Source: Kumtagia ephedrae
GTDB taxonomy: Bacteria; Pseudomonadota; Alphaproteobacteria; Rhizobiales; Rhizobiaceae
Reading direction: 5' to 3'
Assembly: GCF_003012745.1 (NCBI RefSeq)
Contig: NZ_PXYK01000033.1
Location: 1 to 61,475, forward strand
Length of the DNA: 61,475 nucleotides
Made by a program: the position numbers and the translations under genes
Shown: in pieces, positions 25,861 through 44,908 of the stretch
Numbering within the stretch: position 1 is the first letter of the stretch
How the letters are laid out: each line of letters begins with the position of its first letter
Notes under the pieces: generated by a model
What the model was told of the DNA's origin: nothing
What the model saw: only the letters and a program-made list of their open reading frames with translations
The model's database searches: none

Positions 25861-26769
25861 CTACAGCGAGCGCGGCGCGATTTTGGCGCGCGCCGTCAGA
25901 GCAAGGGCAAGAAGCGTCATGGCATAGGGCAGGATGGAGAAGAGTTCCGTCGGAACAAAGCTCATTCCGCTCTGCGCGCGAAGGCCGAGGCTTTCGAAGA
26001 ACGAGAAGAGGAGCGCTCCCGCAAAGGCTCCCGGCACGGACCAGCGACCGATGATGACGACCGCGAGCGCGACGTAGCCGCGGCCATTGGTGAGCCCGTC
26101 ATTGAAGGCGCCGAGCACGCCGAGCGTGATGGCCGCGCCCGCGAGCCCCATCAGCGCGCCACCGAGCGTCAGCGCCACGTAGCGCACCAGCGCCGTATCG
26201 ACGCCTCGCATCTCCGCCCCTGCCGGATCGTCGCCCACCGCCTTCAGAACTATGCCGATACGGGTCTTGGCCAGCACGAAAATTCCCACGACCAGCGCGA
26301 CGAACGTCGCGTAGGTCATCAGGTTCTGTCGGAACAGTATGGGGCCGACGAACGGGATATCGCTCAGGAACGGCACCTTCCATGTCGGCGTCAGCGGCAC
26401 GAAGATCGCCATCTGGCCGGAAGGCTGCCAGAGCTGGAAGAGATAGGACGTAAGCCCGGCGCCTATAAGTGAGATAGCGATGCCGATGACGATCTGGTTG
26501 GCGCCGAGCCGGATGACGGAGACGGCCAGAAGGGCTCCGTAGCAGGCGCCGACCGCGGCGGCGCCGAGAAGCCCCGCCTGCCATCCGGCCATGTGAGCGA
26601 AGACGACCGCGGCAAAGGCCCCCGCTGTCATGATTCCGTCGATACCGAGATTGAGCGTTCCCGCCCGCTCGGTGATCATCTCACCGAGCGCAGCCAAGAA
26701 GATCGGCGCCGCGAGCCGCAGCATGCCGCCAAGCACGATCTGCCAGAAAACGATGTCGGTCCACGTCAC
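25861..26769 (-). CDS. ABC transporter permease, BMP/nucleoside type (module 1, second permease)
   Basis: 302 residues from GTG at 26769, four bases after the upstream permease gene. About nine hydrophobic segments with the branched-chain/nucleoside permease pattern: LGGMLRLAAPIFLAALGEMI followed by TERAGTLNLGIDGIM, the conserved N-terminal block, and GANQIVIGIAISLIGAGLTS. Members such as YufQ/NupQ work with an ATPase, another permease and a BMP lipoprotein to import purine nucleosides. It is the last gene of purine module 1. Confidence 0.92.
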   Translation of the reverse strand: MTWTDIVFWQIVLGGMLRLAAPIFLAALGEMITERAGTLNLGIDGIMTAGAFAAVVFAHMAGWQAGLLGAAAVGACYGALLAVSVIRLGANQIVIGIAISLIGAGLTSYLFQLWQPSGQMAIFVPLTPTWKVPFLSDIPFVGPILFRQNLMTYATFVALVVGIFVLAKTRIGIVLKAVGDDPAGAEMRGVDTALVRYVALTLGGALMGLAGAAITLGVLGAFNDGLTNGRGYVALAVVIIGRWSVPGAFAGALLFSFFESLGLRAQSGMSFVPTELFSILPYAMTLLALALTARAKIAPRSL

Positions 26770-26773
26770 GGGA

Positions 26774-27805
26774 TCATGCCGTCCTTTTTTTTCGCTGCAG
26801 ACCGATCGCGACGATCAGCAGCACCAGCCCCTGCGTCACGACTGCGATCGCTGCCGGTACGGAGGTTCCCATCTGCATCCCCTGGGCACCGGTGGTGAGG
26901 GCCGCAAACATCAGGGAAGCAAGCACGATGCCGAGCGGTCTAAGCCCACCCAGCACTGCGACCAGGATGCCGCCGAAGCCGAGACCGCCGTCGACGCTGG
27001 GGTAGAGCGTGTGGGCGACGCCGGCGACCTGCAGCCAGCCGGCGAGACCGGCAGTGGCCCCGGCGAAAAGAAAGCTTGTCACTACCGCCCGTGGCCGCGA
27101 CAAACCGAGCCGCGCGGCGAGCCCCTCGTTGCTGGCGAAAACCCTGTAGAGGAGGCCCGACCGCGTGCGCATCCACACCATCAGTCCAGCGGCGAGCAGA
27201 ACCACGAAGGCCGCGCCCCAGTGAAGACGCGTGCCCTCGAGCAGGCTCGGCACGAGGGAGGTCTCCGGCAAAGGGGCGCTGCGCGGGGTGGCCGTTTGCG
27301 CGGCCGCGGCAAGCGGCCCCTTGAGAAGCCAGATCAGCGCGAACCCGGCTATGTAATTCAGGAGCAACGTGGAGAGTATCTCGTTGACCTGGACGTAGGC
27401 GCGCAGCAGGCCGGGCAGCAACGCATAGAGCATGCCGCCGAGCACGCCGCCCATGAAGCCGACCGTCAGCAGAACCACGGGCTCGTCGGCCGGTACGGAA
27501 AAGACGAACGCCGTCGAGAGCGCCGCGCCTGCAATCAGTTGCCCCTGGCTGCCAATGGTGAACACGCCGGTCCGAAGTGCCGGCATGACGCCGAGCCCTA
27601 CGATCGCGAGCGGCACGGCGGTGACAAGCGTTTCGGCAAGCAGGTAGCGTTCGCCGAACGCGCCGTGCACCAGCGCCCGCAGCGCGGCGAGAGGATTGGC
27701 GCCAGCCAACCACACCAGCGCCGCTACGACCGCCGCCAACACAGCTGCACCGAGCAGTATTCGCGCAAGCTCGGTCGCCACCCCGTCCGTCGTGCGCCCC
27801 GTCAC
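26774..27805 (-). CDS. ABC transporter permease, BMP/nucleoside type (module 1, first permease)
   Basis: 343 residues from GTG at 27805, overlapping the stop of the flavoprotein gene by GTGA. About ten hydrophobic segments. LRTGVFTIGSQGQLIAGAAL near residues 80-100 is the permease signature, and VNEILSTLLLNYIAGFALIW follows. It resembles YufP/NupP permeases. It pairs with the downstream permease to form the membrane channel of module 1. Confidence 0.92.
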   Translation of the reverse strand: MTGRTTDGVATELARILLGAAVLAAVVAALVWLAGANPLAALRALVHGAFGERYLLAETLVTAVPLAIVGLGVMPALRTGVFTIGSQGQLIAGAALSTAFVFSVPADEPVVLLTVGFMGGVLGGMLYALLPGLLRAYVQVNEILSTLLLNYIAGFALIWLLKGPLAAAAQTATPRSAPLPETSLVPSLLEGTRLHWGAAFVVLLAAGLMVWMRTRSGLLYRVFASNEGLAARLGLSRPRAVVTSFLFAGATAGLAGWLQVAGVAHTLYPSVDGGLGFGGILVAVLGGLRPLGIVLASLMFAALTTGAQGMQMGTSVPAAIAVVTQGLVLLIVAIGLQRKKRTA

Positions 27806-29067
27806 TGATAGAGGCCCGGTTCCGGCTGCCAGCCCGTGAGGACGTGACGGCCGATCTCCGCCTGCTTCCAGTTGACCGGATCGTGCAGGGCGAGGACGCG
27901 GATATTGCGCCAGTAGCGGTCGAAGCCGTTGGCCCGCGCGACCGAGCGCGTTCCCATCAAAGTGTAGATTTCCGAGGCAGCGGCAAGCGATGCCTTGTGG
28001 GCGGCGACTTTGGCGGCATAGACCGGGATGGCGAGCCCCGTGCGATCGATGTCGCCGCGCTCATAGGCATCGAGGAGATCGGCCGCGCTCAGCATCAGGG
28101 TATAGGCGGCAACGAGATCCGCCACGAGCTCGCCGGTCGACCTCTGCGTCAGCGGGTCGTCGGCGGCATTTGCCACCTTGGCCGATGGCCACGGGCGGCT
28201 CTTCGACGGAACGAAGTCGGCCGCCTGGCGCAGGGCGCCGATCGCCGTACCTATCATGATGGCACAGAAGCCGACCTGATAGCGCAAGGAGGCGTGCGGC
28301 GGCGAAAACTGTCCGGGGATCGTCGCGTTCCACAGCGGATCGGTCTGCACCTGGTCGAAGGTGATCGTTCCGGAATCCGTCGCCCTCTGCCCGATCGCGT
28401 CCCAGTCGCGGTGCACGGTAACGCCTTCGGTCGCCGGCGGGATGAGATTGAGCTGCATCCCGGCAAGCGCGTTCTCCGATGCGCCGGGCGCCTGGGGATT
28501 GAAGGCCCAGGTGGCGATGTAGTCGGCTTCGGCTGCCGCAGTCGTGTAGATCTTGCGGCCGTTGACGACGAAACCGCCATCCGGCCGGGCAAGCGCCGTG
28601 GTGGTCATGGGAGCGTCGACCGTGCGGCCGGACTCAGCGACGGCAAGGCCGATGATGGCTCCTTCGTCGACGATTGCACGCGCCAGACGCGGCTTGAGGC
28701 CCTCCGGGCAATAGGTCAGGATCTCACGCACGATCTCGTCATGCACCTTGTAGATCTGGGCAACCGAGCTGTCCGCGATGGCGAGCCGCAGTTGCGCCTC
28801 CATGGACAGGCGGTGGGAGATGCCCAGTCCACCCAGCGATTTCGGCAATATGGCGCGCAGAAATCCGCTTCGCTTCAGGGCCGCGATCGACTCCGTGGGG
28901 TACCGTCCTGTCGCGTCGTTTTCGACGGCGCGTGGCGCAATCTCGCCGCCGATCGCCTTCTGCAGGTCCAGCATGAGCGGAGCGACCTCCGCCGGCAGCG
29001 CAAGCGGCGGAAAGGCTGCGCCGAGGAGCGGAGAAAGTGTGGTCTTTGTCATTCCCTCATCCAGCAT
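27802..29067 (-). CDS. Acyl-CoA dehydrogenase-like flavoprotein (SfnB/DszC type)
   Basis: 421 residues from ATG at 29067, overlapping the adenine deaminase stop (TGATG); an ATG at 29052 is an alternative. The three-part acyl-CoA dehydrogenase fold is present: helical N-terminal domain (about 20-130), beta domain with GLAVAESGRTV and GGFVVNGRKIYTTAAAEADY (about 130-250), and C-terminal helices with YTLMGTRSVARANGFDRYWR (about 385-405). The catalytic base of true acyl-CoA dehydrogenases is not evident. The closest look is to flavin monooxygenases of the SfnB/DszC group, which oxidise S- or N-containing compounds with FMNH2. Its place between adenine deaminase and nucleoside permeases is unusual and suggests oxidation of an imported purine derivative. 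Confidence 0.82.
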   Translation of the reverse strand: MLDEGMTKTTLSPLLGAAFPPLALPAEVAPLMLDLQKAIGGEIAPRAVENDATGRYPTESIAALKRSGFLRAILPKSLGGLGISHRLSMEAQLRLAIADSSVAQIYKVHDEIVREILTYCPEGLKPRLARAIVDEGAIIGLAVAESGRTVDAPMTTTALARPDGGFVVNGRKIYTTAAAEADYIATWAFNPQAPGASENALAGMQLNLIPPATEGVTVHRDWDAIGQRATDSGTITFDQVQTDPLWNATIPGQFSPPHASLRYQVGFCAIMIGTAIGALRQAADFVPSKSRPWPSAKVANAADDPLTQRSTGELVADLVAAYTLMLSAADLLDAYERGDIDRTGLAIPVYAAKVAAHKASLAAASEIYTLMGTRSVARANGFDRYWRNIRVLALHDPVNWKQAEIGRHVLTGWQPEPGLYQ

Positions 29068-30941
29068 CAGACGGCGACGGCCTCGAAACGGGCCGGATCC
29101 ATCGCCCGGTGAATATCGTGCGTATGGCTGGGGCAGCGGCAGCAGACGAGGCCGCCTTTCCTGCCGAGCACGAGGTCGGTGAAGCTTTGCGTCTTGGTTT
29201 CGACAAGCCCGCGTTCGGTAAGGCCGAGATCCGGCACGCCCACCAGCCCGATGAAAGACATGATCAGGAAGGGCGCATGCATCGTGCAGCCGATGGTCCG
29301 GGTGGCGGCGTCGCAAGCGAGCGACTGGTCGCGCACCGTCTCCCATGGCTGGTCGCTCATGCAGCCCGCGACCGGCAGAGGAACGGTCGACAGCACTTCG
29401 CCGTCGGCGACCGTGACGTAGCCGCCGCCGAGAGCCTCGATCGCCCGGGCGGCAAAGGCCAGGTCTGCGTCCAAAGTGCCGACGATCACCAGGTTCTGGT
29501 TCTCGCAATTGGTGGTCGCGGCAATGGCGCCGCGCTTCAGGCCGAAACCCTTGACGAAGCCTATGCCGACATTGAGCGTCGCATGGTGCCGGTCGACGAT
29601 GGCGACCTTGAGCACATCCCTGTCGGTATCACAGGCGACCAGGCCGTCGCGAACGTCGAGTTCGGTGTGGAAGGCGCGCTTGAAGTAGCCGTCATACATC
29701 TCCATCGCCTGCACCCAGGCCTTGTCGCCCTGCGCATTCACCGAGAAGAAGGTTTCGTCGATATCGGGATGAAGATGCATCGTGTTGCGCGTGAATGCCG
29801 GCACTTCGTCGGTGTTCGCGAAAAGCGCCACGCCGTCGCGGGCGACGACCTTGCCGTCGACCAGCACGAGATGCGGCCGCGCTTCGGCGAGATCCTCGAC
29901 CAGCTGCAGATCGGCGATCTTGTTGGGTGTGACCGAGCCTATCAGATGGTCGACCCGGTAGTACGAGGCGGCGTTGAGCGTCGCCATGCGCCAGGCCTTG
30001 AGCGGCTCGACGCCGCACTCGATCGCCTTGCGCACCTGATGATCGATGTGACCCTGGCGGTCGAGGTCCTCCACCAGCTTGTCGTCCGCGCAAAAGGCGA
30101 TGTGGCCGAGCCCATCCTTCAGCGCGGGAATGTCGGCGAAGACCTCGGGAGTGTTGTCGTTCATGCTGCCGGCCATGACCGTCAGCATGGCCCCGAGGCG
30201 CAGCCGCTCGACGACATCCCTTGTCTTGTGGGCGTTGTGGTCGTCCGAGATGCCGCCGGCGAGATAGCTCCATAACGGCTCGTTCTCGAGCAGCGCGGTG
30301 TGGCCGGTGATGCGCTTGCCGGCCGAGATCGCCGCGACCTGCTTGCGAGCGGAGGACTCGTCCAGGTTGAAGGGGTTGGATTCGCCCAGCGTGGCGGCAT
30401 CCGGACGCTGCACGCGTGCGGCGATCTGCTCGGTGGTCAGGTGCGCGCCGCCGAGTTCAAGCTCGGGAGCCTGCGGCACCTTGTGGGAGACCTGGCGCAG
30501 GATGCGCAGCGGCGTCGTCGTCGAGCCCATGAAATCGAGCCCGGCCTCACCCAGCACGTTGGCGATGCAATTGGCGTCGGCGAGCACGGTGGTCGTGCCC
30601 TTCGGCACCGACAGGCGCGCCAGTTCGCCGGGCACGAGCTTGGTATATTCGATATGCAGGTGGACGTCGATGAAGGTCGGGGCGACGAAGTATCCGGTCG
30701 CGTCTATGACATTGTCGCATTCGAAGTGCCCGACCGGCGTGATTGCCGCGATATGGCGCCCGCTGATGACGACGTCGCGCTCGAGAATTTCGCCGATATG
30801 CAGCGCCAGCACCTTGCCGCCGCGAAGGATCAGATCCGGTTTTTCCTTGCCCGCCGCGACGAAGCGCATGCGCATCAGCTCGGCGACAGACGGCGCCCAG
30901 GCGGCCCCGGTCGCGGGATAGGTGAGCGGTTCGTCGCTCAT
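29067..30941 (-). CDS. ade: Adenine deaminase
   Basis: 624 residues, typical for bacterial adenine deaminases of the amidohydrolase superfamily (COG1001). It should convert adenine to hypoxanthine and ammonia. The metal-binding motif VHLHIEYT (H94, H96, E98) follows the beta-sandwich N-terminus. ITGHTALLENEPL, GISDDHNAH and the C-terminal CRCPSHTHDIHR segment are family features. Some relatives prefer N6-methyladenine or other modified adenines, so the substrate may be a variant. It overlaps the ATPase gene upstream (ATGA) and the flavoprotein gene downstream. Confidence 0.9.
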   Translation of the reverse strand: MSDEPLTYPATGAAWAPSVAELMRMRFVAAGKEKPDLILRGGKVLALHIGEILERDVVISGRHIAAITPVGHFECDNVIDATGYFVAPTFIDVHLHIEYTKLVPGELARLSVPKGTTTVLADANCIANVLGEAGLDFMGSTTTPLRILRQVSHKVPQAPELELGGAHLTTEQIAARVQRPDAATLGESNPFNLDESSARKQVAAISAGKRITGHTALLENEPLWSYLAGGISDDHNAHKTRDVVERLRLGAMLTVMAGSMNDNTPEVFADIPALKDGLGHIAFCADDKLVEDLDRQGHIDHQVRKAIECGVEPLKAWRMATLNAASYYRVDHLIGSVTPNKIADLQLVEDLAEARPHLVLVDGKVVARDGVALFANTDEVPAFTRNTMHLHPDIDETFFSVNAQGDKAWVQAMEMYDGYFKRAFHTELDVRDGLVACDTDRDVLKVAIVDRHHATLNVGIGFVKGFGLKRGAIAATTNCENQNLVIVGTLDADLAFAARAIEALGGGYVTVADGEVLSTVPLPVAGCMSDQPWETVRDQSLACDAATRTIGCTMHAPFLIMSFIGLVGVPDLGLTERGLVETKTQSFTDLVLGRKGGLVCCRCPSHTHDIHRAMDPARFEAVAV

Positions 30942-32452
30942 GGTGCTATCTCCATTCCATTGAGGCCCGTCATTGCCTGTCCGAGCAGGGTCATGTCGAC
31001 AGGTCGGGCAAGATCGAACTCCGCCACGATGCGGCCGTTGGTGATGACGATCATGCGATGTCCGAGTTCCAGGAGTTCATCGAGGTCCGCCGAGATGACC
31101 ACGACCGCCGCTCCAGCGGCGGCAGCCTTCGCCAGCGCGGCGCGGATGGTGGCGGCCGCGGCAAGATCGAGCCCCTGCGTGGGGCCGTGCGCCACGACCA
31201 CACCGGGAGCACGGGCGAGTTCGCGGCCGACGAGAAGCTTCTGCTGGTTGCCGCCGGAAAGACCCCCGGCGATCGCATCGGGATCGGGCGGCCGAACGTC
31301 GAAATCCGCGATGATGCGCTTGCCGTGGTCATGTTCGGCCGATCGATCGCGCATGCCCGGAAACCGCCGGAACGCCTTGCCTCCCATCTCGAAGAGGCTG
31401 GCATTCTCGAAGATCGTCAGATCGGCGACGATCCCGTCGGCCCGGTTTTCCGGAATGAACGCCAGGCCCAGGCACGTGGAGCCGTCCGGGTCACCGGTGA
31501 CGTCGATCGCATCGATCTCTACGCGTCCGCCATTCACGGCCCGCAGCCCGGCCAGCGCTTCCGCCAGCGCCGGCTGGCTGACACCCGCCACCCCTGCGAC
31601 CGCCAAGATTTCGCCCTGCCGTACCTCCAGAGAGATGCCGTCGAGTATCAACTGATCCTCGTCCCGGAGCATCAGGCCGGAGACCTTCAGGCGCCGCCAC
31701 TCGCTGGTCGCGGCCGCGCGTGTCGCCCTGCCCCGATCGCGGTCGCCAACCATAAGGCGCGCCACCTCGTTGGTGTCGAGCCCCGCTGTCGTGCCGTCCA
31801 AAATGACCTTGCCGCCGCGCAGAACGGTGAGGCTGTCGGCACCCTCCATGACCTCGGCAATGCGGTGGGTGACCAGCGCCACCGAGGTTCCGGCGGCCGC
31901 CAGGCGGCGAATAGTCCTGACGAGACGGTCGATCTCGACCGGCCCAAGCGCCGAGGTAGGCTCGTCGAGCAGCAGGATGCGCGCGCCGGCGGTGACCGCC
32001 GAGACGATCTCGCCGAGCTGGCGGCCGGCCAGGCTGAGGCGCTCGACCGGAGACGTCAGGTCGAGCGAGACGTCCATGTCCGCGGCCGCCTCCTGGAGCC
32101 GCGAAAGCGCGCCGGCGCGATCGAGCCTCAGGCCGCGTCCGGCCAGCAGGTGGTTGTCGACGATGGACAGCGTCGAAACAAAGGAAAGCGCCTGCGGCAC
32201 GAAGCCTATTCCGGCCGCGATGGCCTGGCGCCTCGACCATGGCCCTACAGCCGCCCCGTCGAGGACGAACTCTCCGGTATCGCGCGGAACAATGCCGGCG
32301 ATGATTTTCGCCAGCGTGGACTTGCCCGCTCCGTTCTCGCCGACGATCGCGCGGATGCGCCCGCGCTCCAGATCGATCGCGGCACCGGAAAGGGCCGATA
32401 TCGATCCGAAGCGCTTGTCCACGTCCTTGAGACTGACGAGCATATCCGACAC
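30938..32452 (-). CDS. ABC transporter ATP-binding protein, two NBDs (module 1)
   Basis: 504 residues from GTG at 32452 (or ATG at 32443). The first nucleotide-binding domain (about 1-245) has Walker A GENGAGKST and a signature reading LSLAGRQ in place of LSGGQ. The second (about 255-500) has a degenerate Walker A (GVAGVSQ) and an intact LSGGNQQK. This asymmetry is normal for the RbsA/NupO-type double ATPases of nucleoside importers. It lies 12 bases after the BMP gene and overlaps ade by ATGA. Confidence 0.93.
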   Translation of the reverse strand: MSDMLVSLKDVDKRFGSISALSGAAIDLERGRIRAIVGENGAGKSTLAKIIAGIVPRDTGEFVLDGAAVGPWSRRQAIAAGIGFVPQALSFVSTLSIVDNHLLAGRGLRLDRAGALSRLQEAAADMDVSLDLTSPVERLSLAGRQLGEIVSAVTAGARILLLDEPTSALGPVEIDRLVRTIRRLAAAGTSVALVTHRIAEVMEGADSLTVLRGGKVILDGTTAGLDTNEVARLMVGDRDRGRATRAAATSEWRRLKVSGLMLRDEDQLILDGISLEVRQGEILAVAGVAGVSQPALAEALAGLRAVNGGRVEIDAIDVTGDPDGSTCLGLAFIPENRADGIVADLTIFENASLFEMGGKAFRRFPGMRDRSAEHDHGKRIIADFDVRPPDPDAIAGGLSGGNQQKLLVGRELARAPGVVVAHGPTQGLDLAAAATIRAALAKAAAAGAAVVVISADLDELLELGHRMIVITNGRIVAEFDLARPVDMTLLGQAMTGLNGMEIAP

Positions 32453-32464
32453 GTCGCCGTTCTC

Positions 32465-33454
32465 TTATTCGAAGAAATTGGGCAGCGTCTTCTTGCCGCT
32501 TTCGAGATCGGCGATCAGCGCCTCGACCTGGTTCTTCAGATCGGCAGGCAGGCTTTCGCCGACCTCACGAACTTCGGTCATCACGAGGCCCTTGTTGGCG
32601 ATGCCGGAAACGAAGAACTTGTTGCCGAAGCTGCCGGCCTTGATGTCGTCCACATAGGCCTTGTAGGTCGGGTACATGTCGAGCACGACGGATGCGATGT
32701 TGACCTTCTCGGCAAAACCGCCGGCCTCGCCCGTCACGCCGATCGTCAGCGCGCCTTCCTGTCCGGCCGCGGCGGCGACGCCGTTGCCGATGCCGTCCCC
32801 TGACGTCCAGATGAGGCCGGCGCCCTGCGCGATCATGCCCCTGGTCACCTCGGCGGCCTTCTGGGCGTCGTCGAAGGAACCGGTATAGGTTTCGACGAAG
32901 GCGGCCGACGCGTTGCCTTCCTTCAGGCCGGCCTTGAAGCCGTTATGGGAAGCCTTGACGAAGGGAAGGTCCGGACCGCCGACCATGCCGAACGTGGTGA
33001 CGCCGGCAAGCTTGCCGGCAATGAAGCCCCCGAGATAGCCCTGCTGTCCGAAATCATAGGTCCAGCCGTCGACATTGGCGATCAGACGGTCGGCGAGATC
33101 CGGTCCGCCGGACGCGGCGAAATGCACCTTGGGAAAGTCGGGCGCGATTTTCAGGATCGGGTCGGAAAGCTCGATGCCGTGACCGATGACGAGGTCATAG
33201 CCCTGCGACGCATACTGGCGGATGACGGGCTCGGACTTTGACGGGTCGGCCATTTCCTCGCGGAGTTCGAACGTGATGTCACCGTCCTTGGCAAGCTTCT
33301 CGGCAGCCTCGCGGGCGACCTGGTTGAACGACCCGTCATTGGCATGGCCGGGCACGAGGAGAGCGACCTTGAGGGGATCGGCGAATGCGGCGCCAGCGGA
33401 AAGGCTGGCGAACACGACGGTGGCGGCAAGACTGATCTGACGCAGTGTTTTCAT
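32465..33454 (-). CDS. BMP family substrate-binding protein (module 1)
   Basis: 329 residues from ATG at 33454 with AAGGAA upstream. A signal peptide ends near GAAFA (residues 22-26). The mature part begins PLKVALLVPGHANDGSFNQV, the usual BMP/Med domain start, and continues with VIGHGIELSDPI and GYLGGFIAGKLAG. BMP proteins such as PnrA and NupN bind purine nucleosides in the periplasm. There is no lipobox, so it is free in the periplasm. Its ATG overlaps the stop of the secreted unknown protein (ATGA). Confidence 0.92.
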   Translation of the reverse strand: MKTLRQISLAATVVFASLSAGAAFADPLKVALLVPGHANDGSFNQVAREAAEKLAKDGDITFELREEMADPSKSEPVIRQYASQGYDLVIGHGIELSDPILKIAPDFPKVHFAASGGPDLADRLIANVDGWTYDFGQQGYLGGFIAGKLAGVTTFGMVGGPDLPFVKASHNGFKAGLKEGNASAAFVETYTGSFDDAQKAAEVTRGMIAQGAGLIWTSGDGIGNGVAAAAGQEGALTIGVTGEAGGFAEKVNIASVVLDMYPTYKAYVDDIKAGSFGNKFFVSGIANKGLVMTEVREVGESLPADLKNQVEALIADLESGKKTLPNFFE

Positions 33455-34047
33455 GGAGCCTGTTCCTTCGGAGCCGTGGTTGCGTTGTCGGTTGCGAATG
33501 TGAGCGACGCCGGATCGAGGCTGGGGCCGTCGAAGCGGTTGCTGAATCTGTTCTTCTGGGCGATCGCCGCCCCGGTCGTGATCTCGAAGCACGGGTCGAG
33601 GATCGGCCGCGAAATTCCGAGCATTTCCGCAGGCACGCACAGAACCGAGAAGCGGCCGTAGGGCTCGGCCTCGATGGAAGCGTCCAGCGCGCCGGCGCGG
33701 CTTTTCGAGATCAGCGCGGCCGTCGACAGAAAACCGGCGGGCGAGGGCGTGCCGTCGCAGGCCATCCCGCCCGGGCAGACAAGGTGCCGCATCGTCCCGT
33801 CGGCATCGACCGCGACCGCTTCGCGCGACCGCTCCGCCCAGGCCGGAGCACCACCGAGGATGGACACCACGTCACCGTCGCGGCTGATGTCGATCGCCGC
33901 CATGTAGGTCGGCTCCACCTTGGAGCCGGATACCGCGAAACGTTCCGGGAGGCTCCTTGCCCATTGCAAGAGGTCGGTGCCAGCCGCCGCGGCGGGCGCT
34001 TCCGCGAACGCGAGAGCGACGATTGCAAGGGCGAGGTGTCTCACCAT
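33451..34047 (-). CDS. Secreted four-cysteine protein of unknown function
   Basis: 198 residues from ATG at 34047, overlapping the end of the adenosine deaminase gene by seven bases. A signal peptide (residues about 1-22, ending AAAAG) is clear. The mature protein has no recognised domain and contains four cysteines in two pairs, CPGGMAC and VLCVP...PC, compatible with two disulfides in the periplasm. It is translated between add and the BMP gene, with overlaps on both sides, so it is part of the importer operon. A role in processing or presenting the substrate outside the inner membrane is only a hypothesis. Confidence 0.78.
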   Translation of the reverse strand: MVRHLALAIVALAFAEAPAAAAGTDLLQWARSLPERFAVSGSKVEPTYMAAIDISRDGDVVSILGGAPAWAERSREAVAVDADGTMRHLVCPGGMACDGTPSPAGFLSTAALISKSRAGALDASIEAEPYGRFSVLCVPAEMLGISRPILDPCFEITTGAAIAQKNRFSNRFDGPSLDPASLTFATDNATTAPKEQAP

Positions 34048-35030
34048 CTTGCGAGGGCCTCCAGCAGGGAGGTCTTCAGCGCGTCCGGGGCGAAGGAGGC
34101 GCGAATAGAGGTTTCCGCGACACCTCTGCACGTTTCCTTGTCCCAGGCGAAGGCGTCGGCCGTGCGGGCATACTCCGCGGCAAGGTCGGTGCGCAGCAGG
34201 GCGGGATCGTCGGTATTGACCGAAACCGGCACGCCGGCGCGACGCAGAAGCTCGATCGGATGCTCGCCCAGCGTCCTGTAGAGGCCGAGCACGAGGTTGG
34301 AACTCGGACAGACCCCGAGCGCGATCTGGCGATCGGCCAGGATCTCCACAAGCGCGGGATCCTCGATGGCGCGAACGCCGTGGTCGATGCGGTCCGCGCC
34401 GAGCAGGAAGATCGCGTCGCGAACCCCTTCTGGTCCGCTGGATTCGCCGGCATGAGCGGTGCGCCCGAGACCGCCGCGTCCGGCGATCTGGAAAGCCTCC
34501 GCGAATTTCTCGCCGGTGCGGCCGGATGCAGCTTCGTTGCCGTCGACCGAAAGCGCGACGACCCGCGGATGCTTCAACCGGAGCAGTTCCTCGACCAGCG
34601 CGACGGCTTCCACGCAGGATTGCTGCCGCAGAAGCGACACGCACAGGCCGACCGGCGGGAGGCCATCCGCTTCGGCTGCGCGAAAACCCTCGTCGAGCCC
34701 TTCCACCAGTCCGGACAAATTACCCCGCCAGCCCGACCAGTGCGTCGGATTGACGATCACATCGGCGTAGCCGACGCCGGAATCCGCCATCCGCCGGGAA
34801 AAGGCATAGGCCGACCTGGCGAGCTGATCCTTGCTGCGCGACAGGCCGCAGATGAAATCGAGGAACCGGAGAAAATCCGCGAGGCCCTGAAATTCCAGCA
34901 ACCGCTCTTCCGGCCGGGGCAGAGGTGTACCGTTCTCGCGCGCGAGCTCCACGATCGTCTCGGTGGAGAAGCAGCCTTCGAGATGGATATGGATTTCCGC
35001 TTTCGGCAGCGATTTGAAGTCCGTCGACAC
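34041..35030 (-). CDS. add: Adenosine deaminase
   Basis: 329 residues from GTG at 35030, chosen because it gives the normal adenosine deaminase N-terminus (STDFKSLPKAEIHIHLEG). Upstream in-frame GTG 35096 and TTG 35135 cannot be ruled out. Zinc ligands HIH (H14, H16), the catalytic block TAHAGE near residue 200, RIDHGV near 225 and NTDDPA near 280 are all present. It should convert adenosine (or an N6-substituted adenosine) to inosine. It opens the module 1 operon, followed by the secreted protein and the transporter. Confidence 0.93.
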   Translation of the reverse strand: MSTDFKSLPKAEIHIHLEGCFSTETIVELARENGTPLPRPEERLLEFQGLADFLRFLDFICGLSRSKDQLARSAYAFSRRMADSGVGYADVIVNPTHWSGWRGNLSGLVEGLDEGFRAAEADGLPPVGLCVSLLRQQSCVEAVALVEELLRLKHPRVVALSVDGNEAASGRTGEKFAEAFQIAGRGGLGRTAHAGESSGPEGVRDAIFLLGADRIDHGVRAIEDPALVEILADRQIALGVCPSSNLVLGLYRTLGEHPIELLRRAGVPVSVNTDDPALLRTDLAAEYARTADAFAWDKETCRGVAETSIRASFAPDALKTSLLEALARW

Positions 35031-35137
35031 GTGTGCTGAAGCCCCGGATTTTCCTTGGTTCCGGCTGAGGAGCTTCCAGCTTTTTCGCAGGTGCACAAGA
35101 GCAATTTCACGTTCGAACCGTGCGACGGAATGCAACG

Positions 35138-36070: not shown

Positions 36071-36188
36071 GGTTTCCTGATCGCGGCAGAGCGTTGCATC
36101 TTCTCGTACGGTAGCGCCGCGAATTGTTGCTTGTCACTGATTTTCCCATTCGGCACCCTGCTGCAATGCACATAAGGGAGCGCATGCG

Positions 36189-36752: not shown

Positions 36753-37715
36753 TCAGCGCGCTTCGATGAGCGTCGAACGATAAAGGTCAAGCAAGCCGTC
36801 GGAATCGACGGAGGTGCAGACCCTGTGCGACGGCCGGCCATCCCATGCGCCGGGCGGATAGGACAATGTGTCCGGCTTCTGGACCGTCATGCCGCGGGTG
36901 ATGCCGTCGGTCGAGACGCGGATGGCTCCGCTGCGCGTGGTGAAAAGCTCGGGCTTCAGAAAATACGCCACGGCGGAGGAGTCGTGGACATAGATCGACG
37001 AAACCCCGCCGGCCTGGTGGAAGGCTTCGTAAAAACGCGAGATGTCCCATACAAAATGGCCGCTTTCGCCACTTTTTTCGGCAAGATCGGCCAGAAAATC
37101 GGTGGACATTCTGGTTTTCTGGGTCACGTCGAGACCGACGAAGGTGATCGGCCAGTCGGCGGCGGCAATCTCGTCGGCGGCTTCCGGATCGCCGATAATG
37201 TTGGCCTCGGCAGCGGGGGTGACGTTGCCCTGCACGCCGGCGATGCCGAAGGCGCCGCCCATGACGACGATCTCCTTGACCAGGGAGGCGATGCCCGGCT
37301 CCTCCCGCAGCGTCAAGGCCAGATTGGTCATACGGCCGACGGCGACGATGGAGATCTCGTGAGGGGCGGCACGCACGGCGTCGATGATGAAACGATATGC
37401 CGGGCGCGGGTCGGCCCTGGCCCGGAGTTGCGCCGGCAGCGCCACGTCGCCCAGGGCGTTGCGGCCGTGGACGAAATCGGGCGGCGCCATCGCCGCGCCG
37501 ACCAGCGGCGCGCCCGCCCCGCGCGCGACCGGCGCGGCGATGCCGAAGCGCTCGGCGATATAAAGAGCGTTGAACGTGGTCTGGTCGATGGTGCCGTTGC
37601 CGAACGTCGTGGTGATGCCCGCAAGCTCCACCTCCGGTGCGTGATGCAGGAAGAGCAGCGCCATCGCGTCGTCTACGCCCGGATCGGTGTCGAAGATCAC
37701 TTTGCGGAGGGTCAT
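36753..37715 (-). CDS. Nucleoside hydrolase (purine/pyrimidine ribohydrolase)
   Basis: 320 residues. The calcium-binding signature DTDPGVDDA lies at residues 9-17, GGAFGIAGVQGNVTPAAEAN near 150-170 is the second family block, and NIIGDPEAADEI follows. The enzyme splits nucleosides into ribose and base in the cytoplasm, so it links the nucleoside importer to the base deaminases. It is the last gene of module 2, 26 bases after the permease gene. Confidence 0.94.
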   Translation of the reverse strand: MTLRKVIFDTDPGVDDAMALLFLHHAPEVELAGITTTFGNGTIDQTTFNALYIAERFGIAAPVARGAGAPLVGAAMAPPDFVHGRNALGDVALPAQLRARADPRPAYRFIIDAVRAAPHEISIVAVGRMTNLALTLREEPGIASLVKEIVVMGGAFGIAGVQGNVTPAAEANIIGDPEAADEIAAADWPITFVGLDVTQKTRMSTDFLADLAEKSGESGHFVWDISRFYEAFHQAGGVSSIYVHDSSAVAYFLKPELFTTRSGAIRVSTDGITRGMTVQKPDTLSYPPGAWDGRPSHRVCTSVDSDGLLDLYRSTLIEAR

Positions 37716-37741
37716 GAGCCGGTCCTCGTTCGATGCGGGGT

Positions 37742-38659
37742 TCAGATGCGCACGAAGCGCTTGCGGCGGGCGCGGGCATGGATGACCAGCGCCACGATCG
37801 GCACGATGTAGGGCAGGGACTGCAGCAGTTCGCTCGGGATGCCCTTGCCCTGCAGCGAAATGACGAACGCGTCGGCGGCACCGAGCAGCAGCGACGCCGC
37901 CATGGTGCCCCAGGCGCTGCCATAGCCCATCAGGTCGGCGGCAAGGGCGACGAAGCCGCGGCCTCCGCTCATGTTCTGCGAGAACCAGCTCACATAGCCC
38001 ATCGAAAGGAAGGCCCCCGCCGCGCCGGCGAGAAGACCCGAAAGCACGAGCGCGGCGATCTGCATGCGTGCCACGTCGATGCCAGCGGTCGCCGCCGCTT
38101 CCGCGCTCTCGCCGACGGCACGCAGGCGTATGCCGAAGGGCGTGCGCATCATCAGGACGGCGACCACCGGCACCATGGCGAAGGCGAGATAGGTCAGCAC
38201 GTGATGGCCCGACAGCAGCCTGCCGAGCACGGGAATGTCGGCGATCAGCGGGATCGCAAGCGAAGGAAGGACGCCACTCGACAACGAGCCGGACATGCCC
38301 TTGTCGCCGGTGAGCATGTAGAGGACCAGCGTCGTGCCTGCCGCGGCAAGCATGTTCAACGCGATGCCGGACAGGATGAGGTCCGCCTTCAGCACATGGA
38401 TGGCGAAGGACAGGAGGAAGCCCAGCACGGCCCCCGTCGCCAGCGCGCCGGCAAGTCCGACCCAGGCACTGCCACTCGCCGCGCTGGCCAGCACGCCGGC
38501 AAGCGCTGCGGCCAGCATCATGCCTTCGACGCCGAGATTGAGCACGCCCGCCTTCTGGGAGATGTGCACGCCGAGCGCCGCCAGCAGGATCGGCGTCGTC
38601 ACGCGCAGCAGCACCGGAACGAGGTCGACGATATGGGCGATGGTCTCCAGGAAGGTCAC
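37742..38659 (-). CDS. ABC transporter permease, BMP/nucleoside type (module 2, second permease)
   Basis: 305 residues from GTG at 38659, overlapping the first permease gene (GTGA). Multiple hydrophobic segments. HISQKAGVLNLGVEGMM near residues 32-48 is the same conserved block as in the module 1 permease (TERAGTLNLGIDGIM). It forms the channel with the adjacent permease. Confidence 0.92.
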   Translation of the reverse strand: MTFLETIAHIVDLVPVLLRVTTPILLAALGVHISQKAGVLNLGVEGMMLAAALAGVLASAASGSAWVGLAGALATGAVLGFLLSFAIHVLKADLILSGIALNMLAAAGTTLVLYMLTGDKGMSGSLSSGVLPSLAIPLIADIPVLGRLLSGHHVLTYLAFAMVPVVAVLMMRTPFGIRLRAVGESAEAAATAGIDVARMQIAALVLSGLLAGAAGAFLSMGYVSWFSQNMSGGRGFVALAADLMGYGSAWGTMAASLLLGAADAFVISLQGKGIPSELLQSLPYIVPIVALVIHARARRKRFVRI

Positions 38660-39707
38660 GCGTGGCCCTCCTTGCGCTTGCCGGAGAGCAGGGCCAGCAG
38701 GCGCGGGCTGCGCGTGATCGCCGACGCCGTGACCAGAATCAGGATCAGCGCCTGGATCAGCCCCACCACCTCGTTGGGCACGTCGTGATTGCGGGCGACG
38801 AGATCGCCGCCGACCTGCAGATAGGAGAGGAACAGCGCGGAGGGGATCAGCAGCAGCGGCCGGTCGCGGGCGAGGATCGCCACCACGACGCCGGTCCAGC
38901 CATTGCCGGGCAGGCCTTGCCAGGAGAAGCGCTGATAGAGGCCGAGAAGCTCGATGCCGCCGGCCAGCGCGGCGATCGTTCCGCCCAGGACCTGGGCGCG
39001 CAGCATGACCGAGCGGATCGGCAGTCCGAGATGCGCGGCAAAGCCGGGATTGGCGCCGACGATGCGCGATTCGTATCCCGCCTTGGTGCGGAACAGGTAG
39101 ATGCTGCCGGCAATGCAGGCGAGGAAGGCGAAGATAGTACCCAGATGAATGCGGGTACCCTCAACGATGCGCGGCAGGCGGGCGTCGGCGGGAATCCTGT
39201 AGCTCACCATCGCGCCCGCCGAAGGGTCGCGCAGGACGGAGTTCACGACGTAGAGGCCGATGAACATCACCGCGAAGTTCAGCATCAGCGAGGAGACCAG
39301 TTCGGAGACCTCGAAGCGATTGCGCAGCACGCCCGGCACCACGCAGGCCGACGAGCCGACGATCATTCCGCCGGCGAGCGCCACCGGCGCCATCGCCCAG
39401 CCCGGCAGGGGCACGAGGATGACGATGGCGGCGGTCGCAAGCGCCCCGAGGAAGAAAGCGCCCTCCACGCCGAGATTGAACATGCCGGCGCGGAACATCA
39501 GCGCGACAGCCAGGCCGCACAGCATCGCGGGCGTCGCCATCTCGACGATGTTGCCCGTGTGGCGGAAGGTGCGGAAAGGACCGAACAGGAACGTGTCGAT
39601 CATGCCGATCGGATCCGGCGTCGCCAAGGCGACCGGAATCAGCACGGCTGCGACCGCCACGATCAGCACCAGCACCGTCAGGGCGAAGGGGGCCAGCGTC
39701 CGGCGGA

Positions 39708-39711
<4 letters not shown>
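38656..39711 (-). CDS. ABC transporter permease, BMP/nucleoside type (module 2, first permease)
   Basis: 351 residues, about ten hydrophobic segments. FRAGMFNLGVEGAFFLGAL near 73-91 and FEVSELVSSLMLNFAVMF near 131-148 are the family blocks. It overlaps the ATPase gene by ATGA. It is equivalent to the 26774-27805 permease of module 1. Confidence 0.92.
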
Positions 39712-41234
<1,523 letters not shown>

Positions 41235-41261
41235 TGGCCGCCTGTCCTGTTCCGCTTCGGA

Positions 41262-42380
41262 TCAGGGGCGAACCGCGGTCCGCATCTTGTCGAGCGCCGC
41301 CTGATCGATGGCGAAGCCGGAAGAGACCTTGATGGCACCGGAGATGATGCCGACCTTCGCTTCGTCGAGCTTCTGCTTCAGCGCCGGCGGGGCGAGCGTC
41401 GCCATGTTGCCGGTTTCGGCCAGTCCGACAGCCTCCTCCTTGAGGCCGATGGCCTCGACGGTGCCGATGGGCAGCTTGCCCTCCAGGAACAGATCATAGG
41501 TGCGGGCGAGCGTGACATCGACCTTCTTCAGCATCGACGTGGCGACCTTGGCGGCCATCGCCGGATCGCTGTCCTTGAAGATCAGCTCCTGGTCGGAGTT
41601 CACGCCGAGCGCCCATTTGTCCGCCTCCTTGGCCGCCGCCAACTGGCCGACGCCCGTCAGGCCGGCGACGTTGAAGCCGATGGCCGTGCCCGCGCGGTAC
41701 TGGGCGAGCGCCAGCTCCTTGCCCTTGGCCGCGTCGTTGAAGGTGCCGGCATAGGAGATCGCGATCTTGATGTCCGGCGTGACCGACTGCGCCCCTTCGA
41801 CGTAGCCGACGAGAAAGTCGTTGATGATCGGAATGTCCATGCCGCCGAGAAAGCCGAGGGATGTCCCCTGGGAGCCTGGAACGACGCCGTCCTTCAGCAG
41901 GCTCGCCGCAAAGATACCCGCGAGGTAGGAGCCTTCGTTCTGCTTGTAGACGACCGAATACACATTGCCGTAGTCGCCCTTGTCGTAGGGCATCACGCCG
42001 TCGATCAGGACATAGGTCTTGTCCGGATATTCCGGCGCGACTTCCGCCATGATGTCGGAGATTTCGAACGTGCAGGCGATGATCAGATCGTAGTCCTGCT
42101 CGGAGACGTCCTGGAAGGTCGGCAGCCATTTGGTCTGGTCGGTGCCCATCTCGATCACCTTGGTCTCGACCTGGTCGCCGTATTTCTGCTTCACCAGATC
42201 CATGCCCTTGGCACCGAGATCGAAATAGGACTTGTCGCCCAGATTGCCGTTGACGAGGAAGACGATCTTTTTGGCATCGGCGCCCTGGGCGCCCGTGGCG
42301 GCCACGGCGAGCACGGAGGTCGAAGCCGCAAGCATCATGGCGCGGAGGGCGCTGCGGCGGGTCATGGCGGTGATCATCAT
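41262..42380 (-). CDS. BMP family substrate-binding protein (module 2)
   Basis: 372 residues from ATG at 42380 with GGGGAA upstream. The N-terminus has a signal peptide containing a TRRSALRAMM stretch that could be read by the Tat pathway, with cleavage near GAQGA. The mature part begins KKIVFLVNGNLGDKSYFDLG and continues with the BMP fold (GSYLAGIFAASLLKDG near 200). It is only distantly like the module 1 BMP protein, so the two importers probably carry different ligands. Confidence 0.9.
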   Translation of the reverse strand: MMITAMTRRSALRAMMLAASTSVLAVAATGAQGADAKKIVFLVNGNLGDKSYFDLGAKGMDLVKQKYGDQVETKVIEMGTDQTKWLPTFQDVSEQDYDLIIACTFEISDIMAEVAPEYPDKTYVLIDGVMPYDKGDYGNVYSVVYKQNEGSYLAGIFAASLLKDGVVPGSQGTSLGFLGGMDIPIINDFLVGYVEGAQSVTPDIKIAISYAGTFNDAAKGKELALAQYRAGTAIGFNVAGLTGVGQLAAAKEADKWALGVNSDQELIFKDSDPAMAAKVATSMLKKVDVTLARTYDLFLEGKLPIGTVEAIGLKEEAVGLAETGNMATLAPPALKQKLDEAKVGIISGAIKVSSGFAIDQAALDKMRTAVRP

Positions 42381-42426
42381 TATGGTTCCCCTTTTTTTTA
42401 AGTCTTGAGTAGTAATCGGGTCGCCG

Positions 42427-43800
42427 TCAGGCCGAGGAAATCGGACTGACCGCGCCCGCGGCATTCTCGGCAAGCCAGGCGCCGCGCCGGGCAAAAAGGC
42501 CGGGCACGACCGCCTGCACATCGGCGATCAGGTCGCCGATGTTGGCCGTCTTCAGATGTCCGTCCTCGACCAGCGTGCGGCCGTCGACCATCGTGAGATC
42601 GACGTCGCCGCCGCGCACGGCATGGACGAGATTGTGGTGCAGGTTTCCGCCCTTGCCGCCGAACAGCGGCGTCATGCGCGGCGTATCGGTGCGGACGGCG
42701 ATGATGTCGGCCCTCTTGCCGGTTTCGAGCGAACCGATCTCGTGCTCCTTGCCGATGGCGCGCGCCCCCTCGATGGTCGCCATGCGCATCACGTCCCAGG
42801 CGTCGAGAGCGGCGGCATCGTGCGTGGCGAACTTGCTCAGCAGCGAAGCGAACTTCATTTCCTCGAACATGTCGAGGTTGTTGTTCTCCTTCTCGCCGTC
42901 CGTGCCGATGCCGACGGCGACGCCCGCCGCCCGCAGCTTGCCGATCGGGGCATAACCGCTGGCGAGCTTCATGTTGCTGGCGGGATTGTGGGCGACCGCC
43001 ACTCCGCGCCGGGCCATCACTTCGATCTCGCTGTCGTCGAGCCAGACGCAGTGGGCAAGCAGCGTCTTGCCGGCATCGAGAAGGCCGAGCTTCTCCAGCG
43101 CCTGGATCGACCGGGTGCCGTAGCGGCGGTGCATCTCCCTGAGCTCGACGTCGGCCTCGTTGCTGTGGGTGTGGAAGCCAGTGCGGAACTTCCTGGCGAG
43201 CTCGATGGCGCGGCGATGGCCGTCCTCGGTCGAATAGAAGGCATGTTCGAGCCCCACCCAGACCTCGACGCGGCCATCGGCCTTGCCGTGCCAGGTTTCG
43301 AGCAGGCGCTCGGTGTCGTCGAGGCGGTCGAAGTAGTCGTAGTCCGGATGCTCTCCGACATAGGGCACCATGACGGTGCGGTTGCCGATGGCGCTGGCGG
43401 CACGGGCGGCGCCTTCCATGTGACGCCACATGTCCACGACCGTCGTCGTCCCCGACAGCACGGCTTCCGCGTAGCAGAGCCAGGAGGCCGCCTCGGCCTC
43501 GCGCGGCCGCAGTACCCGATGCATCGGATCGATGTACATGCGAAGCCAGTCCCACACCGGAAGGCCTTCGGCCGTTCCGCGCAGCAGGCCGGAATGAAGA
43601 TGGGCGTTGACGAGGCCCGGCATCAGCAGGCGGTCGCGCAACAGGCGAACGGGGCTGTCCGGAAAGCTTGCCCGGAGCTCCGCCAGCGCGCCGACCGATA
43701 CGATACGGGCACCGTCGATGGCGACCGCGCCGTTTTCGACGACCCGGTTTTCCGGATCCATGGTGATGACGTGGTCGGCTGCGAGAATTCGAACGGTCAT
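42427..43800 (-). CDS. Amidohydrolase, MtaD/TRZ-ATZ type deaminase
   Basis: 457 residues from ATG at 43800 with GGAG just upstream; a longer frame to 43905 has no better start. Metal site: NAHLH (H67, H69) after the N-terminal beta-sandwich, FHTHSNE near 210, LAHCVWL near 245, and GTDGEKENNNLDMFEEM near 300, which is typical of 5'-methylthioadenosine/S-adenosylhomocysteine deaminases and related chlorohydrolases. It is the first gene of module 2, 46 bases before the BMP gene. A deaminase for an imported modified purine nucleoside is the likely role. Confidence 0.88.
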   Translation of the reverse strand: MTVRILAADHVITMDPENRVVENGAVAIDGARIVSVGALAELRASFPDSPVRLLRDRLLMPGLVNAHLHSGLLRGTAEGLPVWDWLRMYIDPMHRVLRPREAEAASWLCYAEAVLSGTTTVVDMWRHMEGAARAASAIGNRTVMVPYVGEHPDYDYFDRLDDTERLLETWHGKADGRVEVWVGLEHAFYSTEDGHRRAIELARKFRTGFHTHSNEADVELREMHRRYGTRSIQALEKLGLLDAGKTLLAHCVWLDDSEIEVMARRGVAVAHNPASNMKLASGYAPIGKLRAAGVAVGIGTDGEKENNNLDMFEEMKFASLLSKFATHDAAALDAWDVMRMATIEGARAIGKEHEIGSLETGKRADIIAVRTDTPRMTPLFGGKGGNLHHNLVHAVRGGDVDLTMVDGRTLVEDGHLKTANIGDLIADVQAVVPGLFARRGAWLAENAAGAVSPISSA

Positions 43801-43924
43801 GGACTCCGGCTCGGCTTGCGCATGCGTCCACGCGCCGGAAGGCTTGCGGCTCCCGATCGGGCTATCAGCTTGCGCGGAATGGTTGATTTCGGGGCGGCTC
43901 GCCATCCGCCGGTTGACATTTCAA

Positions 43925-43978
43925 AGCTTATGAAGGCGGATGAACGTACACAAGAAAAGTTTATCGCACGGCCCGTGC
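43925..43978 (-). promoter_or_regulatory. Candidate module 2 promoter with adjacent palindrome
   Basis: On the minus strand TTGTGT (43953-43948), a 17-base spacer and TAAGCT (43930-43925) make a plausible sigma-70-type promoter for the amidohydrolase operon. Just behind the -35 lies the palindrome GCACGG-C-CCGTGC (43966-43978), 24 bases before the divergent LysR start. This is a good position for the regulator to bind and activate. Confidence 0.4.
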
Positions 43979-44002
43979 TCAAAGTGAGAGCAGTCGACAT
44001 CG

Positions 44003-44908
44003 ATGCCCATTTTTACGACGGCGACCCGTTGTCTTGTGGAGGTGATCGAGGCCGGGTCGATCCGGCGCGCGGCGGAAATCCTCAACATGGCGCCGTCTGC
44101 GATCAACCGGCACATCCTGAACCTCGAAACCGAATACAAGATGATCTTCCTCGAACGCCTGCCGCGCGGCGTGCGTGCGACGCCGGCCGGCAGGCTCATG
44201 GCCGAGCAGATCCGCCGCTGGCATGCGGACATGGAAGGGGTGACTAACGAGCTGGCGAAGCTGCGTGGCAAGGAGAGCCAGCGCATCACGATCGGCATGA
44301 TGGAGTGTTTCGCCGGCGGCTTCTTCACCGAAATCCTCGCTACGGTGCGCCAGAGCTATCCGGAAGTGTCGGCCGTCGTCCGCGTCGGCGGGACGCGCGA
44401 GCTGGTCAGCCTGCTGGAGGACGGCGAGATCGACCTGGTCGTCGCCTTCAACATGCCGCCGAGCTCCAACTACTGGGCGGTGGAGACCATGCCCATCAAC
44501 ATGGCGGTGGCGGTGGCGGCCGGTCATCCCTTCGCGTCGCGCCGCTCGATTTCCCCGAGCGAATGCGAGAGCGAGCCGCTGCTTCTGGTCGACGGCAGCC
44601 TGAGCCTGCGGCCGCTGATCGACACCATCTTCGCAAGCGGCTCGCCATGGACGACCGCGCCGCTGACCTCGAATTCGATCCTCATGATCAAGAGCGCCGT
44701 ACGCGCCGGAGCCGGCATCAGCATCCTGACGCGGTTCGACGTGCGCGACGAACTGGCGAGCGGTCAGATCGTGCTGGTCCCGCTGGACGCGCCGAACACG
44801 CGGGAAACCCTGTCGATCTGCGTGCGCGACCAGTCGACGGTGCCGGCCCTCAGCACCGCCTTCACCCAGGCGATCATCGCGGCGGTCCGCCGCGAGCTGT
44901 CCCGTTGA
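44003..44908 (+). CDS. LysR family regulator (module 2)
   Basis: 301 residues from ATG at 44003. Helix-turn-helix AGSIRRAAEILNMAPSAINR at about 16-35, then LERLPRGVRATPAG, then an effector-binding domain (about 90-295). It is a paralogue of the module 1 regulator and lies divergent to the module 2 amidohydrolase-BMP operon, which it probably controls. Confidence 0.93.
   Translation: MPIFTTATRCLVEVIEAGSIRRAAEILNMAPSAINRHILNLETEYKMIFLERLPRGVRATPAGRLMAEQIRRWHADMEGVTNELAKLRGKESQRITIGMMECFAGGFFTEILATVRQSYPEVSAVVRVGGTRELVSLLEDGEIDLVVAFNMPPSSNYWAVETMPINMAVAVAAGHPFASRRSISPSECESEPLLLVDGSLSLRPLIDTIFASGSPWTTAPLTSNSILMIKSAVRAGAGISILTRFDVRDELASGQIVLVPLDAPNTRETLSICVRDQSTVPALSTAFTQAIIAAVRRELSR

Follow-up and report, generated by a model that had tools for sequence, protein, structure and literature searches.

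The alphaproteobacterium Kumtagia ephedrae (family Rhizobiaceae) carries, on a 61,475-nucleotide contig (NZ_PXYK01000033.1, contig C33 of its 6.11-Mb genome; the whole stretch is referred to here as the window), two adjoining sets of genes for ATP-binding cassette (ABC) importers with BMP-family substrate-binding proteins, hydrolases typical of purine metabolism, and LysR-type regulators. The question raised by this locus is whether the two sets, module 1 (positions 25861 to 36689) and module 2 (36753 to 44908), form a single pathway, as proposed in a preliminary description that saw in them twin modules for scavenging modified purine nucleosides, or work separately, and which compounds they serve. 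The best explanation, to which as a whole we give about even confidence, is that module 1, a catabolic cassette spread by horizontal transfer, acts on a purine base that most likely bears an additional substituent, that module 2 handles nucleosides independently of it, and that their neighborhood in this genome is a local event.

Two modules with separate histories

Each module contains a complete importer made up of a BMP protein, a two-domain ATPase, and two permeases, within the span originally delimited, and every gene class named in the preliminary description was recovered with Pfam. Read from right to left, module 1 begins with a divergent, plus-strand gene for a CDA-fold deaminase, followed by the genes for the regulator LysR1, an ADA-like amidohydrolase, the initially overlooked protein orfX, BMP1, the ATPase, a COG1001-type “adenine deaminase” (Ade), a flavoprotein, and both permeases; from the ADA gene to the last permease gene, the genes are separated by small gaps or overlap, giving an operon-like packing. 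Module 2, in the same direction, starts with the divergent, plus-strand gene for LysR2 and continues with those for an MtaD-like amidohydrolase, BMP2, the ATPase, two permeases, and a nucleoside hydrolase. The CDA and nucleoside hydrolase genes are convergent and only 63 bases apart. The CDA gene had been placed between the modules, but it is transcribed divergently from the LysR1 gene and adjoins it in 10 of the 14 module 1 loci described below (L021 to L023 being short contigs), and it is therefore assigned to module 1.

The genome has 11 BMP matches, and if 11 places were drawn at random, the probability that some two of them lie no more than 9 kb apart would be 0.15, so the closeness of the two importers is by itself weak evidence that the modules are twins. 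No module 2 importer was seen beside module 1 in the 13 other module 1 loci (contigs L021 to L023 are too short to tell), which speaks against one twin pathway. Of 394 family genomes sampled, 8 gave a match to orfX, including a weak one in G498 (E value of 4.9e-4, 52 of 195 positions) that was set aside as chance, and 11 gave a match to BMP2 with an E value of 1e-70 or better; the genome of the window is the only one on both lists. With orfX found in none of the 10 other family genomes that have a BMP2 match, the expected joint conservation of the modules in relatives is largely refuted. Rhizobium sp. ACO-34A has both modules, located on different plasmids.

Conservation and spread of the module 1 cassette

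A BMP1-alignment scan of 84,980 named genomes, which relied on exact peptide patterns and gives a lower bound, yielded at least 10 loci; these, the ACO-34A plasmids, the family genome loci L057 and L058, and the window make up the 14 module 1 loci. All 14 encode orfX, BMP1, and the ATPase. Ade is present in 13 (it was not found in ACO-34A), the flavin monooxygenase also in 13 (the contig of L023 stops short of it), and both permeases in 11 (in the other three, the contig ends). The ADA gene is likewise found in 13 loci: it is not on the short contig L022, lies on the other plasmid in ACO-34A, and, in L017 and L018, has been relocated to the far end. Among 346 family genomes, the flavoprotein (E value of 1e-75 or better) and the Ade type (1e-120 or better) were each detected in 7, and the genomes with orfX, the flavoprotein, and Ade are the identical seven. 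In a class-wide sample, orfX was seen in 1 genome of 385, that of the window.

Two loci, L019 and L023, bear Actinomycetota names, with BMP1 identities of 68% and 61%, respectively; both are metagenome-assembled genomes (MAGs), so mis-binning is possible. The range, which includes Rhizobiaceae, Methylocapsa, other alphaproteobacteria, and Actinomycetota-labeled MAGs, points to horizontal transfer, and the sequence comparisons together point to module 1 being a rare, mobile, and strictly co-inherited unit. A plasmid search with the whole span returned no record covering 80% of it, and keyword searches of the open-licence literature found no description of the module 1 cassette. In L058 (G720:C1:1070000-1089000), BMP1 and LysR1 are each split into two matching segments, which would fit an interruption or a sequencing error, in a cassette that is otherwise 79 to 96% identical.

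Base import versus nucleoside import

BMP1 (positions 32465 to 33454; all features are on the minus strand unless stated otherwise) matches PF02608 with 130 bits (cutoff, 24.1) and BMP2 (41262 to 42380) does so with 181.5 bits. As the preliminary description held, the two differ strongly, with 28% identity over 252 residues. The closest structure to BMP1 in the PDB is 4p98 (E value of 3.7e-98, 332 bits), and the relatives of BMP2 include tmpC/PnrA (2fqw). In BmpA, according to PMC13325309, ribose is contacted by Asp98, Asp225, and Lys242, and the base is sandwiched by Phe27 and Phe176. A HMMER alignment gives the BMP1 equivalents of these residues as Gly116, Thr241, Leu258, Phe43, and Phe194. 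Apart from one Thr-to-Ser replacement, all 13 orthologs are invariant at these five positions, so that the three ribose contacts are absent throughout and the aromatic clamp is retained. In BMP2 and 11 relatives, the equivalents of Asp98 and Lys242 are present in all 12 proteins, the clamp is kept as Tyr/Phe and Phe, and the Asp225 position is occupied by Asp in 9 and by Asn in 3, including the BMP2 of the window.

Module 1 encodes no nucleosidase; module 2 encodes one, the nucleoside hydrolase. Because the contact residues differ and the nucleoside hydrolase is found only in module 2, module 1 is predicted from sequence to take up a base, and module 2 to take up a nucleoside; the two importers thus probably do take different ligands, as previously suggested. 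A role of module 1 as a nucleoside importer was considered and rejected, given the missing ribose contacts of BMP1.

The remainder of the module 1 importer consists of the two-domain ATPase (30938 to 32452; two stretches matching PF00005) and the permeases perm1a (26774 to 27805; PF02653, 98.4 bits) and perm1b (25861 to 26769; PF02653, 121.6 bits), the latter keeping its place in those cassette loci whose contigs extend that far.

Hydrolases of module 1

The Ade protein (positions 29067 to 30941; PF13382 and PF01979) scores 376.7 bits against the equivalog model TIGR01178, below the cutoff of 472.5. Its motifs were compared with those of Atu4426 and of four paralogs (two copies from L015 and one each from L056 and L060). 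All 12 cassette copies retain the metal-binding text (HxH, E, GH, DH, and DD) and, with it, the two-metal ligands HxH, E, H, H, and D listed for YerA in PMC12133300. The same 12 copies have HIEY in place of HIES, D[AP]NC in place of xSHE/DPHE, and DHN in place of DHE, and the C-terminal motif HD(S/K)HN has become C(E/D/S)NQN in 11 of 11 (the L023 copy is cut). None of the four paralogs has any of the four altered sites, and none of the readable cassette copies has DPHE, DHE, or HDSHN. Judged by these motifs, the cassette “adenine deaminase” is not a standard one.

The ADA-like protein (positions 34041 to 35030; GTG start, checked), an amidohydrolase of the adenosine/adenine deaminase type (cog1816), matches PF00962 with 245.9 bits. 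Its nearest PDB entry is 3rys, which we take to be an adenine deaminase and with which it has the HLEG and RIDHG text in common; the cassette copies also have text of their own, NPTHW and HLEGC, in 12 of 12. The CDA-fold deaminase (36189 to 36689, plus strand; guanine-deaminase/TadA-like; PF00383, 79.5 bits) has guanine deaminase 1wkq as its top PDB match, tied with tRNA and CMP deaminases. Aligned with 1wkq, it shows the zinc motif HAE plus PCAMC, but HAE/PCxxC is common to all CDA-fold deaminases and therefore not specific to guanine deaminase.

Enzymes for N6-methyladenine are known from COG1001 subgroups (PMC12133300, PMC13296781), and a cytokinin deaminase that does not act on adenine or adenosine belongs to cog1816 (PMC13296781). 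With enzymes specific for N6-substituted adenines in both groups, and with cassette enzymes that leave the canonical motifs, a modified purine is a plausible substrate.

Flavin monooxygenase and orfX

The flavoprotein (positions 27802 to 29052; start checked, ATG with MTKTTLS) is, on its Pfam, PDB, and NCBIfam matches, a DszC/SfnB/MsuC-like flavin monooxygenase with an acyl-CoA dehydrogenase fold, and its best PDB relatives are DszC and methanesulfinate monooxygenase. SfnB is the nearest NCBIfam family but the score stays below its cutoff in all three copies examined (TIGR04022, 248.5 bits in the window, 247.0 in L020, and 232.1 in L019; cutoff, 430.9), and the score for DszC (NF043015) is 191.2 bits against a cutoff of 850. 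A genome search found no flavin reductase on the window contig and nine matches elsewhere in the genome. In ACO-34A, additional flavin monooxygenase genes stand beside the importer part of the cassette: that part is flanked by a second SfnB-like gene and a gene of the NtaA/DmoA-family monooxygenases, which hints at sulfur chemistry in this one genome.

The 198-residue secreted protein orfX (positions 33451 to 34047), encoded between ADA and BMP1, has no Pfam match, a tentatively predicted LolA-like half-barrel, and a signal-peptide-like start as judged by eye. The start of the L019 protein has lipobox-like text (also by eye), which would place it outside the membrane.

Proposed route and its pathway context

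From the gene content, conservation, co-occurrence, and residue changes observed above, we infer a route in which the choice of base over nucleoside, the order of the steps, the substituent, and the regulation are provisional. The base would enter through BMP1 and its ABC importer, with orfX as a partner outside the cytoplasm; the FMNH2-type monooxygenase may then oxidize the substituent or the ring; and up to three hydrolases (ADA-like, remodeled Ade, and CDA-fold) could strip exocyclic groups, so as to deliver hypoxanthine or xanthine to the ordinary xanthine-urate pathway. LysR1 would control module 1 from the CDA/LysR1 intergenic region. In module 2, the PnrA-like BMP2, its importer, the nucleoside hydrolase, and the MtaD-like deaminase would act under LysR2.

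Downstream genes of this pathway are found next to the cassette in some relatives. In L018, the CDA gene is followed by genes for a polysaccharide-deacetylase-fold protein (PuuE-like by eye), OHCU decarboxylase, and allantoicase; L011 has the same run, then ureidoglycolate lyase and HIUase, with an XdhC protein encoded ~24 kb away, in L013. In K. ephedrae itself, the genes for an OHCU decarboxylase and a molybdenum dehydrogenase are ~4 kb apart on C14, which, with the neighbors just listed, suggests that hypoxanthine or xanthine can be burned further. Such urate-pathway neighbors occur in only 2 of the 14 loci, and none were noticed by eye in the flanks read of L014, L016, L019, L020, and L057; the flank of L015 encodes two more Ade-like proteins and an amidohydrolase. 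Of the substrate proposed at the outset, purine catabolism as the general field holds, because L018 and L011 have genes of the urate pathway next to module 1, and a modified purine stays plausible, but the binding residues speak against module 1 importing it as a nucleoside.

Weighing of alternative explanations

The simplest alternative, ordinary purine-base salvage, would have plain adenine or guanine serve as a nitrogen source, the deaminases yield hypoxanthine or xanthine, and the flavoprotein play an accessory part. The likeness of the ADA-like protein to 3rys, the guanine deaminase at the top of the CDA matches, and the adjoining urate genes are all as this would have it, yet Ade is off the canonical motifs in 12 of 12 copies and below the TIGR01178 cutoff, the CDA matches are tied, and the monooxygenase accompanies the cassette as strictly as Ade does, which would not be required of an accessory gene; an oxygenase combined with a remodeled hydrolase is beyond the needs of plain purine salvage, and we consider this alternative rather unlikely. 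The original proposal, in which both modules belong to a single coordinated route for modified nucleosides, strikes us as improbable. Their adjacency, paralogous regulators, and complementary enzyme sets suit it, as does L056 of genome G490, in which MtaD-like, nucleoside hydrolase, BMP, and Ade-like genes form a single run (29 to 45% identity for most genes), but the Ade of L056 is of the other, noncassette type, no module 2 importer was seen next to module 1 in the 13 other loci (three of them on short contigs), and the modules have no other sampled family genome in common. No better a prospect is the degradation by module 1 of a purine-like nonpurine heterocycle, such as a triazine, pterin, or thiamine-type pyrimidine: amidohydrolase families are promiscuous, and BMP proteins can take triazines, as AtzT binds 2-hydroxyatrazine and ammeline (PMC6834077), but in two of the three hydrolase families the typical members are adenine or adenosine enzymes, and the cassette adjoins urate-pathway genes in two relatives. 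A more specific idea is that module 1 is a route for hypermodified, sulfur-bearing, tRNA-derived purine bases, such as 2-methylthio-N6-isopentenyladenine. The DszC/SfnB-type enzyme would oxidize the methylthio group into a leaving group, the remodeled Ade would displace either that group or the side chain at N6, deamination of the cytokinin type would fall to the ADA-like protein, and the prenylated ligand would be carried outside the membrane by orfX, whose half-barrel would offer a hydrophobic pocket. This very improbable idea draws on hints, namely, the sulfur enzymes nearest to the flavoprotein and the SfnB-like and NtaA/DmoA-family flanks in ACO-34A.

Several observations weigh against the preferred reading of module 1 as a co-inherited cassette for a modified purine base. 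The cassette of ACO-34A is split over two plasmids (L024 and L026), with no Ade detected on either stretch, and L019 has no CDA or LysR1 gene nearby, although its sequence extends 4.8 kb upstream. The ADA-like protein scores above the cutoff of the ordinary adenosine deaminase model TIGR01430 (261.2 versus 216.55 bits). The loss of ribose contacts in BMP1 was deduced through sequence alignment; no single contact is diagnostic, since AtzT, a guanine binder, retains Asp at the Asp225 position, and the missing Lys alone is not special, since it is also absent in 7 of the 9 other BMP proteins of this genome.

Module 2 and its relatives

The importer of module 2 comprises, besides BMP2, the two-domain ATPase (positions 39708 to 41234; PF00005, 167.1 bits, two stretches) and the permeases perm2a (38656 to 39711) and perm2b (37742 to 38659), both matching PF02653. 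Importers of the BMP2 type, with 55 to 58% identity, were found in nine family genomes and ACO-34A. A nucleoside hydrolase follows the importer in all nine cases examined; the identity to that of the window (36753 to 37715; PF01156, 290.3 bits) is 56% in L047/L049 and 33 to 36% in the rest. No close MtaD was found among the relatives examined. With neighbors differing in this way, module 2 appears to be a nucleoside importer with variable enzyme partners. In both L048 and L025, the two loci scanned for it, a gene of the ADP-ribosylglycohydrolase family is located next to the nucleoside hydrolase or the importer.

The MtaD-like amidohydrolase (42427 to 43800; COG0402 type; PF01979, 215.6 bits) has the methylthioadenosine/S-adenosylhomocysteine deaminase 4f0r as its nearest PDB entry, and its 345.5 bits against the MtaD/5'-deoxyadenosine deaminase model PRK07228 fall below the cutoff of 522. 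It is 67% identical to an MtaD-like protein encoded elsewhere in the same genome, in a further purine-type cluster on C8 (L060, C8:65000-84000) with genes for a BMP importer, ADA-like, Rieske, GST-like, and Ade-like proteins, LysR, a GMC oxidoreductase, and the MtaD-like protein. Largely the same genes are found in L027 of Rhizobium sp. BG6, where the Ade-like match comes in two pieces and looks interrupted.

Regulators and neighboring genes

LysR1 (positions 35138 to 36070) and LysR2 (44003 to 44908, plus strand, divergent from the rest of module 2) both match PF03466 and PF00126. They are paralogs, as previously noted, with 37% identity over 275 residues, and are mutually nearest in the genome at E values of 1e-15 or better. 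The next LysR, at 28%, is encoded on C8 with another BMP gene ~5 kb away, which suggests a possible association of this LysR branch with BMP modules. Alignment of nine CDA/LysR1 intergenic regions revealed a partly conserved block ~22 to 65 bases before LysR1 (approximately 36090 to 36136 in the window), a candidate operator/promoter and, by its position, a candidate LysR1 site. A scan for TN11A-like palindromes covered the LysR2 region, where it gave one match, and four CDA/LysR1 regions, where it gave none.

Next to LysR2 lies a gene for a 2OG-Fe(II) oxygenase of the isopenicillin-N-synthase type (44936 to 45808), none of which was seen in a tblastn search of the module 2 relatives. On the other side, module 1 is adjoined by a gene for an isochorismatase-family hydrolase (24987 to 25640, plus strand), a distant relative of which (23%) is encoded beside CDA in L026. 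Farther out are a plus-strand gene for DUF5996 fused with a GCN5-related acetyltransferase domain (22293 to 23606) and genes for an M20 peptidase and AbgT-type transporter pair (16359 to 19175), presumably as in p-aminobenzoyl-glutamate use. The window gave no Rfam match.

Significance and comparison with known systems

If the proposed route is correct, bacteria would gain the use of purine bases beyond ordinary salvage, and a function would be assigned to a subclass of COG1001 hydrolases, a branch of group D flavin monooxygenases, and a family of secreted proteins that Pfam does not cover. Should the substrate be an N6-substituted adenine, some of which are plant hormones (cytokinins), carriers of the cassette could alter hormone levels near roots. 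Strict co-inheritance would make the whole pathway testable with one operon.

Among known transport systems, the PnrA/BmpD nucleoside ABC importers of Treponema and Borrelia have the same BMP fold, importer layout, and aromatic clamp; BMP2 retains most of their contact residues, whereas BMP1 lacks the three ribose contacts. The BMP family also includes binders of guanine or adenine bases, AtzT and Brucella 3s99, according to PMC6834077, but BMP1 is only distantly related to these (55 bits versus 332 bits for 4p98). The cassette Ade has the same amidohydrolase and Adenine_deam_C domains and two-metal ligands as Atu4426 (COG1001) and the N6-methyladenine deaminase YerA/Bh0637, of which Atu4426 has a third metal site absent from YerA (PMC12133300), but differs from both in having D[AP]NC, DHN, and C(E/D/S)NQN for DPHE, DHE, and HDSHN. 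The ADA-like protein shares the A_deaminase fold and metal motifs of the cog1816 adenosine, adenine, and cytokinin (Patl2390) deaminases and differs in its NPTHW and HLEGC text. DszC, SfnB, and MsuC are the closest PDB and NCBIfam families of the flavin monooxygenase, which, unlike them, is below every equivalog cutoff and sits in a purine importer operon. The clusters L060 and L027 resemble module 1 in combining purine-type amidohydrolases, LysR, an oxygenase, and a BMP importer; however, their oxygenase is of the Rieske type, they have no orfX and no DszC-like gene, and their Ade has ordinary motifs. Module 1 appears to be one variant among the clusters for purine-base import and catabolism.

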